DNA from: Nostocales cyanobacterium HT-58-2
GTDB taxonomy: Bacteria > Cyanobacteriota > Cyanobacteriia > Cyanobacteriales > Nostocaceae
DNA: 64,000 nucleotides
Reading direction: 5' to 3'
Assembly (NCBI GenBank): GCA_002163975.1
Contig: CP019636.1
Span: forward strand, 2,145,001 to 2,209,000
Below are positions 9,409-15,762 of this stretch, one piece after another. Made by a program: the position numbers and the translations under genes. Positions within the stretch are counted from its first letter, which is position 1. Every line of letters begins with the position of its first letter. The notes beneath the pieces were generated by a model. The model ran no database searches. It was given only the letters and a program-made list of their open reading frames with translations, and was not told where the DNA came from.

Positions 9409-10402
9409 ATATTTTGTCTAGATTTATTATTGACAGGTTTGTTGTAAACAACTTCTAAAGCCATACGGTTTGAAGCAATCATCGCACACTACACGAACGG
9501 TCAATGCAGTACATTTAGTATCAAAGAATACTAAAAATTAATATAAGTAAGCGGACAAAATTTTCTGTAGGATGCGTTACGGCTACGCCTAACGCATCAG
9601 TTACTCGGATAGCATGGCTTACGCTTCGCGCTTCCCATCCTACATTTCTTCACTTCGAGCTACTTAATTCGCTGTTGGCTTCTGCTATGACAGGTATTGA
9701 TAGTACCAGAAGCTGAGATTTCTGTTTACGAAATTGTTTTACAGCGTTGAATTAAGAAGTCGAGAAAAAAAGATCTCACCAAGAAACATAAAGTTAATAC
9801 AGAAAAAATTGTGTGTTTGTTTTCATCAGTATGCTTATAGCATTAATACCTGCTAGGAGTATATCAAAAACTTTTGATATTAGAATAGAGACCTCAGAAA
9901 GAGAATGGGGGTTAATTCCCAGATGAGTCTAATAAAGTGTTGCCATGTTTAGCCTTAAGTAAAAAGCTGACATCTGTCTTAAGTTAAATGGTAGAAGAGA
10001 CACTATAGCAATTCTTAATTATATGTATCTACAGTCAGGATACAGCCATGCTACGCCCCTACTTTTATTGTGTTTAATCAATGGAAAACTGCTATAAATA
10101 TTATTCGTTTGTATGTGTCATTTTAATGAATGACAACCAATATATAAACAACCCTAAAATGAATGTAAATATATATTACATTTAGGTTATATTTCAACCA
10201 AAATATTGGTGTCTTATAGCTAGTTTCAAAAGTTAAAGACATACTTAAAACATATCTCTAGAAGCTGACCTCTAAGCAAAATATGCGCTAACGTAGGGAA
10301 GAAATAACTCTGTGTTAGAAACGTTATCTAGAACAAAGCGATTTTCACATTTTAGTGGAGAAGAATGCGAACTTGGTCTAGCTAAATGTTCAGGTATGTG
10401 CT
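9409..10402. other. Long spacer upstream of sucrose synthase, with repeat and near-palindrome
   Basis: I find no gene in this roughly 1-kb AT-rich stretch. A copy of the TGTAGGATGCGTTA repeat lies at 9566-9645, with CTACGCCTAACGCATCAG and a second half ending CCCATCCTACA. At 10164-10180 there is TGTAAATATATATTACA, an imperfect palindrome resembling an NtcA site but with a 9-bp spacer instead of 8. A long leader is plausible for a regulated gene such as sucrose synthase. Confidence 0.5.
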
Positions 10403-12817
10403 ATGCATGAACTAGTTCAAACTGTCTTAACCAGTGAGGAAAAAACTGCTCTACGTGAGTTAGTCGATGCTTTGAGTGCCTTAGATAAAAGGTACTTCTT
10501 GAGAAACGAGATTATACAAGCTTTTGCTGACTACTGTGTGTCTTCGCAAAAGCCAGCCTACTTTTTCTACTCTTCCTCTTTGGCAAAACTTATAGACTAC
10601 ACCCATGAAATCATTTTAGAGGAGGAGGCTACTTGGTTTGTTGTCCGACCAAGGATGGGAAGTCAAGAAGTCTGGCGGCTTGAGGCGAATTTGAGCAACT
10701 TTGAGCGGATGACGCCACAAGCTTTACTAGATGTGATTGATTGTTTGGTCAATCGTTATCAACCCCACATTTTAGAAGTTGACTTCAGTCCATTCTACCA
10801 TGGGTCCCCTAGAATCAGCGATCCACGAAATATTGGTCAGGGTTTAGGTTTCCTCAACCGTTACCTATGTACTCAAGTGAGGACTGATCCTGAATACTGG
10901 ATAGAAGTTTTGCTTGATGTGTTACATCAACGCTCCTATGATGGCATTCCACTGCTCATCAATGATCGCATTAACTCAAGTCGCCGACTTGCTAAACAAG
11001 TTAAGCATGCTTTACATTTTCTAAACGAACGTCCCCCGAATGAACCATACGAAAAATTTCGCTTCGACCTTCAAGAACTCGGCTTTGAACCAGGTTGGGG
11101 TAATACTGCATCCCGGGTACGTGACACTCTAGAACTCGTTGATCGGCTGATTGACTCTCCAGAACCAGCCATCCTAGAAGCCTTTTTCTCTCGCGTTCCG
11201 TCAGTTTTTCGTGTTGTCCTCGTTTCCATTCACGGCTGGATTTCCCAAGAAGGTGCCTTGGGAAGACGTGAAACAGCAGGTCAAGTCATCTACGTTCTTG
11301 AACAAGCACGTCATTTAGAAAATAAACTGCAAGAAGAAATCAAACTTGCTGGATTAGATGTGCTTGGTATTCAACCCCAAGTTATTATTCTGACCCGCCT
11401 TATCCCCAACTGCGAAGGCACACTGTGCAACTTACGCTTAGAAAAAGTTGAGCAAACAGAAAATGCCTGGATTTTGCGCGTTCCTTTTGCTGAGTTCAAT
11501 CCTAGTGTGACTCAAAACTGGATTTCTAAATATGAGATTTGGCCCTATCTAGAAACATTTGCCCTGGATGCAGAAAGAGAACTCCTTACACAATTTCGGG
11601 GTTATCATCCCGACCTCATCATTGGCAACTACAGCGACGGTATCTTAGTTGCATTTCTATTGGCACGCCGTCTCAAAGTGACACAGTGCAACATTGCTCA
11701 CTCTTTGGAAAAACCCAAACACCTGTTCAGCAATCTGTACTGGCAAGAGCTAGAAGATAAATACAATTTTTCAGTACAATACACTGCCGACCTCATCGGC
11801 ATGAATGCAGCAGACTTCATCATCACATCAACTTACCAGGAAATTGTAGGGACACCCGACACACTGGGTCAGTATGAGTCTTACAAATGTTTTACGATGC
11901 CCCAGTTATATCATGTTGTTGATGGGATTGACTTGTTTAGTCCTAAGTTCAACATGGTACCACCAGGGGTGAATGACAGTATCTTCTTCCCTTATACCCA
12001 GACACTAGACCGAGACATTACTGTTAGCAAAAGAGTCCAAGACCTGCTCTTTACCCAGGAAGACTCCCAAATCCTTGGACACCTAGATAACCAAAGCAAG
12101 CGACCCATCTTCGCCGTTGGTGCTATGACTTCTATCGATAACCTTGCGGGTTTAGCAGAATGCTTTGGTAAAAGTCAGGAATTGCAGGAGAGATGCAACT
12201 TAATTATTGTGACTGATAAATTGCATCCACACGAAGCGACAAATTCAGAAGAAGCAGCAGAAATCGAAAGACTGCACAACATCATCAATGAATATAACCT
12301 TGATGGTCACATCCGTTGGATCGGAATACACCTCCCGATCGCTGACCTTGGGGAAGCATACCGTATTATTGGGGATTTTGCAGGGATTTTCGTTCATTTT
12401 GCCAGCTTTGAAGCCTTCGGTCGAACAATTATTGAAGCTATGAGTTCTGGGTTGCCGACTTTCGCGACTCAATTTGGTGGTTCTTTAGAAATTATCGAAG
12501 ATGGAGACGATGGTTTTCATTTGAACCCAACAGATTTAGAAGGAACAGCCAAAACGATATTGAACTTTATTAACCAGTGTGATGGATATCTAGAACACTG
12601 GTATAAAATGTCAGAATGGGCAATTCAACGCATCCATAACAAATATAACTGGCAGTTACACACCAAGCAGTTGTTATTACTAGCTAAGATCTATAGCTTT
12701 TGGAACTTTGTCAATCAAGAAAGTGGCGAAGCCAGATGTCGTTACTTAGAAACTTTATTCCATCTGCTCTACAAACCTAGGGCTGAAAAAATTTTGGAAC
12801 AACATATGCAAAGATAA
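10403..12817 (+). CDS. susA: Sucrose synthase
   Basis: This 804-residue enzyme reversibly cleaves sucrose with UDP (or ADP) to NDP-glucose plus fructose in the cytoplasm. The N-terminal 270 residues are the regulatory part shared with plant enzymes. The GT-B catalytic half shows KYEIWPYLETFALDAE, PDLIIGNYSDG, TQCNIAHSLEKPKH and NAADFIITSTYQEI. It also shows the EX7E motif of GT4 retaining glycosyltransferases at E670 and E678 (EAFGRTIIEA). Length matches cyanobacterial SusA of about 806 residues. In Anabaena this enzyme mainly works in the cleavage direction and feeds glycogen and nitrogen-fixation metabolism. The next gene starts 29 bp later on the same strand, so the two are probably co-transcribed. 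Confidence 0.96.
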   Translation: MHELVQTVLTSEEKTALRELVDALSALDKRYFLRNEIIQAFADYCVSSQKPAYFFYSSSLAKLIDYTHEIILEEEATWFVVRPRMGSQEVWRLEANLSNFERMTPQALLDVIDCLVNRYQPHILEVDFSPFYHGSPRISDPRNIGQGLGFLNRYLCTQVRTDPEYWIEVLLDVLHQRSYDGIPLLINDRINSSRRLAKQVKHALHFLNERPPNEPYEKFRFDLQELGFEPGWGNTASRVRDTLELVDRLIDSPEPAILEAFFSRVPSVFRVVLVSIHGWISQEGALGRRETAGQVIYVLEQARHLENKLQEEIKLAGLDVLGIQPQVIILTRLIPNCEGTLCNLRLEKVEQTENAWILRVPFAEFNPSVTQNWISKYEIWPYLETFALDAERELLTQFRGYHPDLIIGNYSDGILVAFLLARRLKVTQCNIAHSLEKPKHLFSNLYWQELEDKYNFSVQYTADLIGMNAADFIITSTYQEIVGTPDTLGQYESYKCFTMPQLYHVVDGIDLFSPKFNMVPPGVNDSIFFPYTQTLDRDITVSKRVQDLLFTQEDSQILGHLDNQSKRPIFAVGAMTSIDNLAGLAECFGKSQELQERCNLIIVTDKLHPHEATNSEEAAEIERLHNIINEYNLDGHIRWIGIHLPIADLGEAYRIIGDFAGIFVHFASFEAFGRTIIEAMSSGLPTFATQFGGSLEIIEDGDDGFHLNPTDLEGTAKTILNFINQCDGYLEHWYKMSEWAIQRIHNKYNWQLHTKQLLLLAKIYSFWNFVNQESGEARCRYLETLFHLLYKPRAEKILEQHMQR

Positions 12818-12846
12818 CGGTTTAATGTCAACAACCCTGGCTTGCT

Positions 12847-15762
12847 ATGGATAAAACAGACTATTCCCACCATCTTATTTATACAGATTGGACACTCACA
12901 GAAACTCTGCTGAACCCCAATCAGATTCACGCAAAAGAAACTGTTTTCACAATTGGCAACGGTTACCTAGGCACGCGCGGGAGTTTTGAGGAAGGTTTTC
13001 CTGATGGCTTGCCAGCAACCTTCATTCACGGGGTTTATGATAATGTCCCTGTTGTCTACACCGAACTTGCCAATTGTCCTGACTGGTTACCATTGGTTAT
13101 CACTGTGGATGGCGATCGCTTCCGCATGGATCGTGGCGAGATATTGAGCTATGAACGGCAGCTTGACTTACGCCGAGGTATTCTCAGCCGTAAGGTACGC
13201 TGGCGCAGTCCAAGCGGGAAGACAATAGACATTTACTTTGAACGCTTTGCGAGTTTGGCAGATCAACACGTCTTGGGGCTACGCTGTCAATTAACACCCG
13301 TGGATTTTGACGGTTTGATTGAAGTTCAAGGTAGTATTAATGGCTATCCTGAAAATCAGGGTTTTAATCACTGGGAATTGATAGACCAGGGAAAAACCGA
13401 CCAAGGAATCTGGCTACACCTTGAAACCCGCACCAGCCGTATCAACTTAGGTATGGCTGCCGGAATGACGGTATCAGGAACTGATGCCCCGATCCAAGTG
13501 ACAAATCCACCAGGCTATCCTACTTTGACAACTTTATTCCAAGCTTCTGTGGGAGAGACCATAACGGTAGATAAACTGGTGACAGTTTTTACATCACGAG
13601 ATGTGGATAACCCAGTTCCAGCAGCTTGTGAAAAACTTGCTCAACTACCTTCCTATTCAACGCTAGTGGATGCCCACGTACAAGCATGGGATGGAGCTTG
13701 GTTCCAAAGCGACATTACAATTGAGGGAGATACTAAGGCACAATTAGCTGTCCGGTACAATATCTATCAACTACTTATCAGCGCCCCAGAGCATGATGAG
13801 AAAGTGAGTATCCCAGCAAAAACGCTTTCAGGTTTTGGCTATCGCGGTCACATATTTTGGGATACCGAAATATTTATCCTCCCCTTTTTCATTTACACGC
13901 AACCAAAACTCGCTCGCAACTTGCTCTCTTACCGCTATCATACGTTGAATGGTGCGAGGCGCAAGGCAGTTCACTATGGGTACAAGGAGGCAATGTATGC
14001 TTGGGAAAGCGCGGAGACTGGTGATGAAGTGACACCACGTTGGTTGCCTCCTAACGATTTTTACGGTGAAGATGTGCGGATTTGGTGCCGCGATCGCGAA
14101 ATCCACATTAGTTCTGATATTCCTTATGCCGTCTGGTACTATTGGAAAGCAACAGGTGACGACGAATGGATGCGGGACTACGGGACGGAAATTATTCTGG
14201 ATACCGCGATCTTCTGGGGAAGTCGTGTTGAGTATAATACCAAGTACGAACGGTATGAGATTCGTGGGGTGATTGGAGCGGATGAGTACCACGAGTTCGC
14301 AGACAATAATGCCTTTACAAATCGGCTGGTGCAATGGCACTTGGAAAAAGCTCTCTTAGTTTATGAGTGGCTGCGTCAAACTTACCCAGATCGAGCATCG
14401 ACATTACAACAGAAACTGCAAATAACCCCAGGACGGCTTTCCCGTTGGCAAGACATCATTACTAATATATGGATTCCCTCCGATCCATCAACAGGGCTGA
14501 TTGAGCAGTTCGAGGGATTTTTTCAGTTAGAAGATATCAACCTAGCTGATTATGAACCACGCGATCGCTCCATGCAGGCGATTCTTGGTATTGAGGGAGC
14601 CAACAAACGGCAGGTTCTCAAGCAGCCAGATGTATTGATGCTGCTGTATTTGATGCGGCAATCACAAGAATTTCCCTACACCAAAGAAATACTGCAGACA
14701 AACTGGGACTACTACGCACCCCGTACAGATATTACTTATGGTTCGTCTTTGGGACCAGCGATTCACGCCATTTTAGCCTCAGATTTAGGCAAACCAAAAG
14801 AAGCTTACGAACGGTTTATGCAAGCCGCATTGGTGGATCTGGAAAATGTCCGTGGCAATGCTGCTGATGGAATTCACGGGGCAAGTGCTGGTGGTGTTTG
14901 GCAGGCTGTGATTCTGGGATTTGGTGGAGTCCAACTCGCAGAAGATGGACCGATAGCAACCCCACAGCTGCCTCCGGGTTGGAAACGTTTAAGGTTTAAG
15001 CTTCACTGGCGTGGTGAGTGGCACGAGTTTGACCTGCGTCCTGCACAAGACAGCGTGATACCTCTCGATATCCAAGGCGTTATCTTCGATTTGGATGGTG
15101 TTCTTTCAGATACAGCAGAATATCACTACTTAGGATGGCAAAAACTGGCAGATGAAGAGGGAATACCCTTTAATCACCAAGCAAATGAAGCCTTGCGGGG
15201 TTTGTCTCGTCGAGAGTCGCTGCTCAAGTTAGTTGGTAACAGGCACTACTCAGAAGCACAACTTCAAGAGATGATGGACCGCAAGAATCGCTATTATGTG
15301 GATTTTATCCAAACAATAACACCAAAAGATTTATTGCCAGGGACAACAACATTGTTGGATGAGTTGAAGCAAGCGGGTATTAAGATAGCCATTGGCTCTG
15401 GGAGCAAAAATGCTCGCACAGTTATAGAGAAACTGGGAATTGCCCATTACATTGATGCGATCGCTGACGGTTACAGTGTACAGCGAGCTAAGCCAGCACC
15501 CGACCTATTTCTCTTTGCTGGCGAACAGCTAGGACTTGAACCTCAGCAATGTGTCGTTTTTGAAGATGCTACAGCAGGTGTTGAGGCTGCGCTAGCGGCT
15601 GGAATGTGGGCTGTAGGACTTGGTCCTGCTGAACGAGTGGGAATAGCTCACGTTGTCTTACCTAGTCTGGCGGGTGTTCACTGGTCAGAACTACTAGATA
15701 AATTGCGCAGTAGTGTCACTCACGTGAGGGGATTGCAACCGCAAATAAAGGCAACTACGTAA
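12847..15762 (+). CDS. Fusion of GH65 disaccharide phosphorylase with beta-phosphoglucomutase
   Basis: A 971-residue two-enzyme protein. Residues 1 to about 735 are a GH65 phosphorylase like maltose, kojibiose or trehalose phosphorylase. The catalytic acid sits in GADEYHE, E480, with DNNAFTN after it; IFWDTEIF and TDITYGSSLGPAIHA are further family motifs. From about residue 740 a HAD domain of the beta-phosphoglucomutase type follows, with GVIFDLDGVLSDTAEYHYLG, IGSGSKN and FEDATAGVEAA. The first half would split a glucose disaccharide with phosphate into glucose and beta-glucose 1-phosphate. The second would convert that product to glucose 6-phosphate. The true disaccharide cannot be read from sequence. 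Sitting 29 bp behind sucrose synthase, it implies one disaccharide-use operon. Confidence 0.9.
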   Translation: MDKTDYSHHLIYTDWTLTETLLNPNQIHAKETVFTIGNGYLGTRGSFEEGFPDGLPATFIHGVYDNVPVVYTELANCPDWLPLVITVDGDRFRMDRGEILSYERQLDLRRGILSRKVRWRSPSGKTIDIYFERFASLADQHVLGLRCQLTPVDFDGLIEVQGSINGYPENQGFNHWELIDQGKTDQGIWLHLETRTSRINLGMAAGMTVSGTDAPIQVTNPPGYPTLTTLFQASVGETITVDKLVTVFTSRDVDNPVPAACEKLAQLPSYSTLVDAHVQAWDGAWFQSDITIEGDTKAQLAVRYNIYQLLISAPEHDEKVSIPAKTLSGFGYRGHIFWDTEIFILPFFIYTQPKLARNLLSYRYHTLNGARRKAVHYGYKEAMYAWESAETGDEVTPRWLPPNDFYGEDVRIWCRDREIHISSDIPYAVWYYWKATGDDEWMRDYGTEIILDTAIFWGSRVEYNTKYERYEIRGVIGADEYHEFADNNAFTNRLVQWHLEKALLVYEWLRQTYPDRASTLQQKLQITPGRLSRWQDIITNIWIPSDPSTGLIEQFEGFFQLEDINLADYEPRDRSMQAILGIEGANKRQVLKQPDVLMLLYLMRQSQEFPYTKEILQTNWDYYAPRTDITYGSSLGPAIHAILASDLGKPKEAYERFMQAALVDLENVRGNAADGIHGASAGGVWQAVILGFGGVQLAEDGPIATPQLPPGWKRLRFKLHWRGEWHEFDLRPAQDSVIPLDIQGVIFDLDGVLSDTAEYHYLGWQKLADEEGIPFNHQANEALRGLSRRESLLKLVGNRHYSEAQLQEMMDRKNRYYVDFIQTITPKDLLPGTTTLLDELKQAGIKIAIGSGSKNARTVIEKLGIAHYIDAIADGYSVQRAKPAPDLFLFAGEQLGLEPQQCVVFEDATAGVEAALAAGMWAVGLGPAERVGIAHVVLPSLAGVHWSELLDKLRSSVTHVRGLQPQIKATT

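Follow-up and report, generated by a model that had tools for sequence, protein, structure and literature searches.

The window, the whole stretch of 64,000 nucleotides analysed here, comes from the 7.9 Mb genome of Nostocales cyanobacterium HT-58-2 and carries a gene for a SusB-type protein of the sucrose synthase (SUS) family followed by a gene for a predicted fusion of a GH65 phosphorylase with a beta-phosphoglucomutase (beta-PGM) (Table 1). The initial annotation described the two as an operon-like pair, and this description is borne out: both frames are open at the positions of Table 1 with a 29 bp gap between them, and among the best 80 of 272 relatives in public genomes a SUS gene lies immediately 5' of GH65 on the same strand at 71 loci, in two of which (L086 and L107) it was found in part only. 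The other nine loci include six that have less than 250 bp of DNA 5' of GH65, while at L078, L112 and L114 no SUS match above 300 bits was found in the 8.2, 4.2 and 1.6 kb upstream of GH65, respectively. The pairing of SUS with GH65 is old and is conserved in many cyanobacteria. In the 58 of the 71 pairs that were measured, the gap between the genes has a median of 145 bp and extremes of 17 and 547 bp, so that the 29 bp spacing is local to the near relatives of the window while the arrangement itself is old. The nearest named GH65 loci of these 80 are those of Scytonema, Tolypothrix and Brasilonema, with 82-85% identity in GH65.

The same genome holds a second member of each family: a SusA (C1:948256-950673), 60% identical to the window SUS and with its UDP-pyrophosphate clamp intact, and a second GH65 fusion (C1:4803106-4805937), 61% identical to the window GH65 and referred to below as the paralogue. 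In Anabaena/Nostoc PCC 7120 susB is given as all1059 (PMC3610870), and the Fig. 1 legend of PMC3899277 places all1058 in GH65; the adjoining gene numbers suggest that these two correspond to the pair of the window. NtcA-like sites at 9518 and 9567 were considered and dropped, as five relatives have none in the 1400 bp that precede SUS.

Table 1. Positions in the window of the two genes, their modules and the residues discussed in the text
Feature	Position	Strand	Basis or remark
SusB-type sucrose-synthase-family protein (GT4), altered donor site	10403..12817	+	804 aa, open ORF
Codon 292, Ala for AtSUS1 Gly302 (UDP pyrophosphate loop, TGGQ to TAGQ)	11276..11278	+	Alignment
Codon 433, His, retained counterpart of catalytic His438	11699..11701	+	His in 78/78 linked SUS
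Codon 574, Ala for AtSUS1 Arg580	12122..12124	+	Alignment
Codon 579, Asp for AtSUS1 Lys585	12137..12139	+	Alignment
Codon 674, Arg for AtSUS1 Leu679	12422..12424	+	Arg in 68/78 linked SUS
Intergenic gap, 29 bp	12818..12846	+	Between SUS and GH65-beta-PGM ORFs
Predicted GH65 alpha-1,2-glucoside (kojibiose-type) phosphorylase fused to beta-phosphoglucomutase	12847..15762	+	971 aa, open ORF
GH65 module, aa 18-734	12898..15048	+	N, catalytic and C domains; alignment to CsKP 3WIQ
GH65 specificity residues E73, E387, A389, P397, W413	GH65 module	+	Aligned to CsKP; key from PMC8537180
Other GH65 residues: C414 at subsite +1; K592/Q593; S633/S634 and H677 at phosphate site	GH65 module	+	CsKP alignment
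Beta-phosphoglucomutase module, aa 742-926	15070..15624	+	TIGR01990 243.5 bits, cut-off 189.4

The GH65-beta-phosphoglucomutase fusion and its probable linkage specificity

That a GH65 phosphorylase is fused to a complete beta-PGM, as first proposed, is upheld by the presence of the GH65 domains, by a TIGR01990 score above the cut-off, and by an intact set of beta-PGM residues: D748/D750, R788, S851, K854/N855, K882 and E906/D907 are present in the window and conserved in the orthologues, their catalytic roles being those usual in the beta-PGM family. E480 of the GH65 module is presumably the general acid, as is usual in its family. The AlphaFold model of the fusion (pTM 0.59) matches the kojibiose phosphorylase structures 3wir/3wiq at the top of the fold comparison, with beta-PGM structures lower in the list, and its C-terminal part has target-normalised TM values of 0.78-0.91 against beta-PGM structures among the matches listed. 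A model of this confidence suffices for matching the fold and is too weak for placing the active sites of the two modules with respect to one another, and it lends no support to the initial suggestion that the fusion would avoid releasing beta-glucose 1-phosphate. The solved relatives that score best by sequence are a kojibiose phosphorylase (3WIQ, 507 bits) and a glucosylglycerol phosphorylase (4KTP, 423 bits), with maltose phosphorylase at 287 bits.

Six positions sort the specificities of GH65 enzymes, EEAPxx being characteristic of kojibiose phosphorylases and KV[MF]NES of maltose phosphorylases (De Beul et al. 2021, PMC8537180). At these positions (CsKP 64/392/394/402/416/585) the window protein has E, E, A, P, W and G, the kojibiose phosphorylase motif. 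EEAPW is identical in all 74 orthologues read, the GH65 frame having been recovered by sequence pattern at 74 of the best 80 of 272 loci (L046, L049, L056, L072, L109 and L114 were dropped; in L053 and L108 that frame is without the DLDGV motif), and EEAPWG is found in 12 of 12 GH65 proteins of the loci L205-L216 discussed below. The motif thus suggests action on an alpha-1,2 linkage and speaks against maltose and trehalose. Of the four candidate substrates offered at the outset, kojibiose and a "sucrose-related compound" point the right way, and maltose and trehalose are rejected on the motif.

The window protein and all 74 orthologues also retain Trp391 and Glu392 of the kojibiose +1 site of CsKP. 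Thr417 of the same subsite is replaced by Cys in the window, the paralogue, all 74 orthologues and 11 of the 12 proteins of L205-L216, and by Phe in that of L208; the acceptor site therefore differs from that of the solved kojibiose enzyme. The phosphate-site serines S633/S634 and H677 align with those of CsKP and are kept, and since Ser-Ser and His at this site are the mark of a phosphorylase (PMC8626586), the module is predicted to be a phosphorylase and not a hydrolase. Table 1 of PMC8537180 lists a kojibiose phosphorylase from Nostoc sp., with reference to Nihira 2012, so that the activity as such is already known; from the Fig. 1 legend of PMC3899277 the enzyme would be either All1058 or All4989. 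No statement on its substrate within the cell was found in the portions of the literature covered.

Donor site and ancestry of SusB

By family models the window SUS passes as a sucrose synthase, with 1134.7 bits against the NCBIfam equivalog TIGR02470 (cut-off 810.4) and the Pfam domains SUS_N, SUS_EPBD, GT-B_Sucrose_synth and Glycos_transf_1. The claim of the initial annotation that the pair encodes sucrose cleavage is nevertheless put in doubt by the donor site. In AtSUS1 the UDP pyrophosphate is coordinated by Gly302, Gly303, Arg580 and Lys585, and His438, Arg580, Lys585 and Glu675 are named as catalytic (PMC11688632). For Gly302, Arg580 and Lys585 the window protein has Ala, Ala and Asp, and the SusA motif MARLDRIKN reads VGAMTSIDN. 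Arg580 is present in 26 of 26 SusA-type cyanobacterial sequences and in both references (AtSUS1 and NeSuSy) versus none of 78 GH65-linked SUS, which have Pro (44), Thr (17), Ala (7), His (4), Ser (4) or, in two, another residue at this position; Gly302 is divided in the same way (26 of 26 SusA-type versus 0 of 78 linked). In these counts the SusA-type sequences lie away from GH65 wherever both places are listed (the GH65 place in G045 is not), and the linked set is read without the fragments L178 and L179.

Other parts of the site are retained. Lys585 is kept in 64 of the 78 linked proteins and is Asp in seven, the window included; His438 (78/78), Glu675 (77/78) and Glu683 (78/78) are kept, and Gln304 stays as well. 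Leu679 has become Arg in 68 of 78; the early-branching L205-L208 and L216 have Leu or Met here. Of the 229 columns with one and the same residue in SusA, AtSUS1 and NeSuSy, 160 have a conservation of 90% or more among linked SUS; 24 fall below 10%, and several of these (300, 302, 578, 580, 582, 583, 670, 671 and 679) lie in or beside the donor site. Loss of the clamp residues indicates that SusB is probably no standard UDP-dependent sucrose synthase and that the SUS half of the pair is probably mislabelled as one; most likely it is a sugar-binding partner protein. Since most linked SUS retain Lys585 and the remaining catalytic residues, residual activity may persist, and Arg679 might in most of them partly replace the lost charge of Arg580. 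A structure prediction for SusB (mean pLDDT 67, pTM 0.41, with stretches 431-523 and 667-681 below 50) was of low confidence and was therefore left unused.

The GH65-linked SUS form one clade with support 100, whether the donor-site columns are kept, as in the first tree, or dropped, as in the second (53 rows and a short search, with 25 of the 78 linked sequences sampled, every fourth being taken from the 71 linked SUS; L176, the same gene as L206, was omitted). Early-branching linked SUS of other families are already without Arg580. Between the window and three near relatives the dN/dS of SusB is 0.12-0.14, about the same as that of GH65 and indicative of purifying selection. These values, together with the pairing with GH65 at 71 loci, exclude a decaying pseudogene, and with the conserved clade they indicate a protein that is kept for a function probably other than ordinary UDP-dependent catalysis.

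Glucosylsucrose synthase and the proposed role of the pair

Cyanobacteria produce a series of sucrose derivatives with alpha-1,2-linked glucose (PMC4390843, PMC9909042), and a glucosylsucrose synthase (GSS), TeGSS/Alr1000, was reported in 2022 (PMC9909042). The orthologue in the genome studied here (C1:5274414-5275490, 526 bits to 7FG9) lies 3.1 Mb from the window, and no GSS is found beside the pair within the 64-kb window itself. Among 148 genomes of the order, GSS is present in 38 of 39 that have such a GH65 (either paralogue, E <1e-100, thresholds of our own choosing) versus 28 of 93 that do not, with a Fisher p of ~1e-13 that is uncorrected for kinship, which inflates the association; 16 further genomes, whose GH65 is a distant one, were set aside, and 12 of these have GSS. 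When only the first genome per family is counted the figures are 8 of 8 versus 11 of 25 (p 0.01); the 25 include two in which GH65 is distant. In G055 the pair is present and GSS is absent at the threshold.

Physical linkage is the stronger point. Such a GH65 has GSS no more than ~6 kb away in at least 11 genomes (five families) out of the 39, and at least four of these linkages, from two families, combine the GH65 type of the window with SUS: the order is GSS-SPS-SUS-GH65-beta-PGM on one strand in L208 and GSS-SUS-GH65-beta-PGM on one strand in L205, and in L206 and L207 GSS adjoins GH65 and SUS. The GH65 proteins of L205-L208 are nearer to that of the window than to its paralogue. In L209-L215 (seven genomes, three families) GSS accompanies a "glycogen debranching"-type protein and a GH65-beta-PGM nearer to the paralogue, without SUS; Pfam GDE_N_bis is found in the debranching-type protein of L209, L211 and L206, those that were scanned. 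Since at least seven of the at least 11 linkages are thus with paralogue-type GH65 and without SUS, the principal glucosylsucrose enzyme may be the paralogue, and both GH65 proteins are candidates for a glucosylsucrose-cleaving function. Among the best 80 of 272 GH65 loci, mostly from Nostocales and 55 of them exceeding 20 kb, GSS is found within the recovered stretch of DNA in one only (L047, ~6 kb off); the linkage is accordingly a feature of other families, and in the lineage of the window the genes lie apart.

From gene linkage and co-occurrence, alpha-1,2-glucosylsucrose is the likely natural substrate of the GH65 module. A literature search, mostly without subscription papers, found no report that joins glucosylsucrose with a phosphorylase in Nostoc; among the matches listed, a paper rich in glucosylsucrose makes no mention of kojibiose phosphorylase, and the introduction and discussion of PMC9909042 name no glucosylsucrose-degrading enzyme.

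On balance we favor, with some reserve, a role for the pair in glucosylsucrose metabolism, in which the GH65-beta-PGM protein works the chain back to sucrose and SusB is a clamp-less paralogue that aids its partners. Glucosylsucroses are alpha-1,2-linked glucose chains that cyanobacteria make on sucrose under salt and heat stress, and GSS extends them with glucose from UDP-glucose. The GH65 module would use phosphate to release the terminal glucose as beta-glucose 1-phosphate, and the tethered beta-PGM would convert this to glucose 6-phosphate, so that the bond energy would be saved at each step while the chain is trimmed back to sucrose. The SusB clade would have lost its UDP-pyrophosphate clamp on joining the glucosylsucrose system, and SusB would most likely bind sucrose or glucosylsucrose and control or assist the partner enzymes. 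Standard sucrose cleavage would be left to SusA and presumably to an invertase.

Published phenotypes of the pair and of GSS agree with an involvement in the physiology of stress sugars and heterocysts and are no proof of it. susB is strongly expressed in heterocysts, and in a PCC 7119 susB mutant growth and sucrose production are said to be unchanged (PMC4046671); in a yeast assay the osmotic regulator OrrA binds the promoter of N. flagelliforme susB (PMC13131328); a mutant in alr1000 can fix nitrogen solely when oxygen is absent (PMC9909042); and of two Nostoc 7120 substrains in PMC10811720 one, the phage-resistant RD3 discussed below, has lowered nifH expression and heterocysts with a single mutation in what would be all1058, while the other has two mutations, one of them at a sucrose synthase gene.

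On a more conventional reading SusB works as a sucrose synthase whose donor contacts are unusual, yielding ADP- or UDP-glucose and fructose, and GH65-beta-PGM salvages kojibiose or short alpha-1,2-glucans. SusB has been assumed to act in sucrose breakdown (PMC3610870), the equivalog cut-off is passed, most universal columns are retained in linked SUS, His438, Gln304 and Glu683 among them, Lys585 is kept in 64 of 78, and in most linked members the new Arg679 may stand in for Arg580. However, Arg580 and Gly302 are lost in every linked SUS and the window protein is without Lys585 as well, and Arg679, being absent from the early-branching L205-L208 and L216, is no general replacement, which leaves this reading rather unlikely. 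Less probable still is that the loss of the UDP-pyrophosphate clamp turned SusB, as a descendant of sucrose synthase, into an enzyme that needs no sugar nucleotide and transfers glucose to or from sucrose or glucosylsucrose, with phosphate or between chains, in direct cooperation with GH65-beta-PGM.

Two further alternatives concern the sugar handled by the fusion. Its product might feed a cell-surface or envelope glycan instead of a soluble osmolyte, as could be read from the phage-resistant Nostoc 7120 substrain RD3, whose one mutation lies in a gene for a "trehalose and maltose hydrolase, and beta-phosphoglucomutase" and which has 19% of the phage adsorption, 18% of the nifH expression and 32% of the heterocysts of the control (PMC10811720); by the text and table of that paper the gene would be all1058. 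RD3 is, however, a spontaneous mutant for which the parts of the paper covered give no complementation, its growth under nitrogen starvation is not significantly lower, according to the authors phage may be present in the cultures on which all analyses except that of adsorption were made, and the "cell surface" label is the authors' own (PMC10811720). An intracellular sugar defect could moreover alter the surface indirectly, and we regard the envelope role as improbable. Still more so is action on 2-O-alpha-glucosylglycerol, which has a linkage of this kind and serves cyanobacteria as a compatible solute (PMC3899277), and to which the rank of 4KTP as second-best solved relative might point: the six-position motif, as compared with those of kojibiose and maltose phosphorylases, is of the kojibiose type, Trp391/Glu392 are invariant in the 74 orthologues, and in L205-L208 the gene accompanies SUS, GSS and once SPS.

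If the glucosylsucrose role is correct, the pair is a candidate energy-saving recycling route for compounds that accumulate in stressed cyanobacteria. For the GH65 half the activity is a known one and the fusion is conserved among cyanobacteria, and what is new is the proposal for its natural substrate. SusB has been counted as a sucrose synthase in the genome and expression work covered here, and the present comparison suggests that it should not be treated as such in models of carbon flow in nitrogen-fixing filaments before it is assayed. A clear, testable prediction follows from the comparison of a few residues.

Comparison with known systems

The GH65 module shares with kojibiose phosphorylase (CsKP, 3WIQ/3WIR, and the Nostoc enzyme) its fold, the phosphate residues, EEAPW and the Trp/Glu of subsite +1. 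It differs in being fused to a beta-PGM, in having Cys for Thr417 and Gly for Glu585 (Ser or Thr in some relatives), and in that its gene is paired with SUS and joined in certain genomes by GSS and SPS. The beta-PGM module has the catalytic motifs of the Lactococcus enzyme (1LVH) and is a C-terminal fusion module, not a free protein. Glucosylsucrose synthase (TeGSS 7FG9/7FGA, Alr1000), a biosynthetic GT4 enzyme encoded outside the window, makes the alpha-1,2-glucosylsucroses that are the proposed substrate of GH65. Finally, SusB resembles sucrose synthase (SusA, NeSuSy 4RBN, AtSUS1 3S27) in domains, length, His438, Glu675 and Glu683, with 60% identity to SusA, and departs from it in the loss of clamp residues Arg580 and Gly302, in the window of Lys585 too, and in the 24 of 229 universal columns, several of them at the donor site, that are changed in more than 90% of linked SUS.

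Debranching-type protein and GSS-like enzymes

A "glycogen debranching"-type protein, which may be an additional enzyme of the glucosylsucrose pathway, is encoded between glucosylsucrose synthase (GSS) and GH65-bPGM in seven genomes (L209-L215), and it carries GDE_N_bis and six-hairpin glycosidase domains as scanned in L209, L211 and L206, the last a locus with GSS beside GH65 and SUS. The source genome also encodes three GSS-like glycosyltransferases besides its GSS orthologue, to which they are 65-67% identical; two of these are near each other and 89% alike.

Features outside the window (C1, source genome; L, loci of related genomes, except L119 of the source genome)
Feature	Location	Remark
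Debranching-type protein	L209:6055-8334
Debranching-type protein	L210:5766-8081
Debranching-type protein	L211:5380-7698
Debranching-type protein, own copy	C1:7626093-7628357	75% identity; located elsewhere
Three GSS-like glycosyltransferases	C1:3139625-3143008, C1:6468648-6469685
GH65-bPGM paralogue	C1:4803106-4805937 (L119:8062-10989)	61% identity to window fusion

Integrity of the fusions

No sugar genes were recognised in the flanks of the source genome's paralogue. In some relatives the bPGM module seems to be missing from the paralogue, since the open frames there reach only ~750-790 aa. The bPGM motif DLDGV is absent from the GH65 ORF as read in L053 and L108; either the fusion has been lost there, or the frame is shifted by a mutation or by an error in sequencing.

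Surroundings and known mutants

Within the 1.3-kb region upstream of SusB, a short repeat-like stretch (window 9560-9660; ggctacgcctaacgcatc..., gcttcgcgcttcccatcctac) resembles, by eye, dispersed cyanobacterial repeats. A GH65-bPGM gene and a sucrose synthase gene both appear among the mutations that PMC10811720 (Table 1) tabulates for Nostoc 7120 substrains that resist phage and are impaired in their heterocysts.
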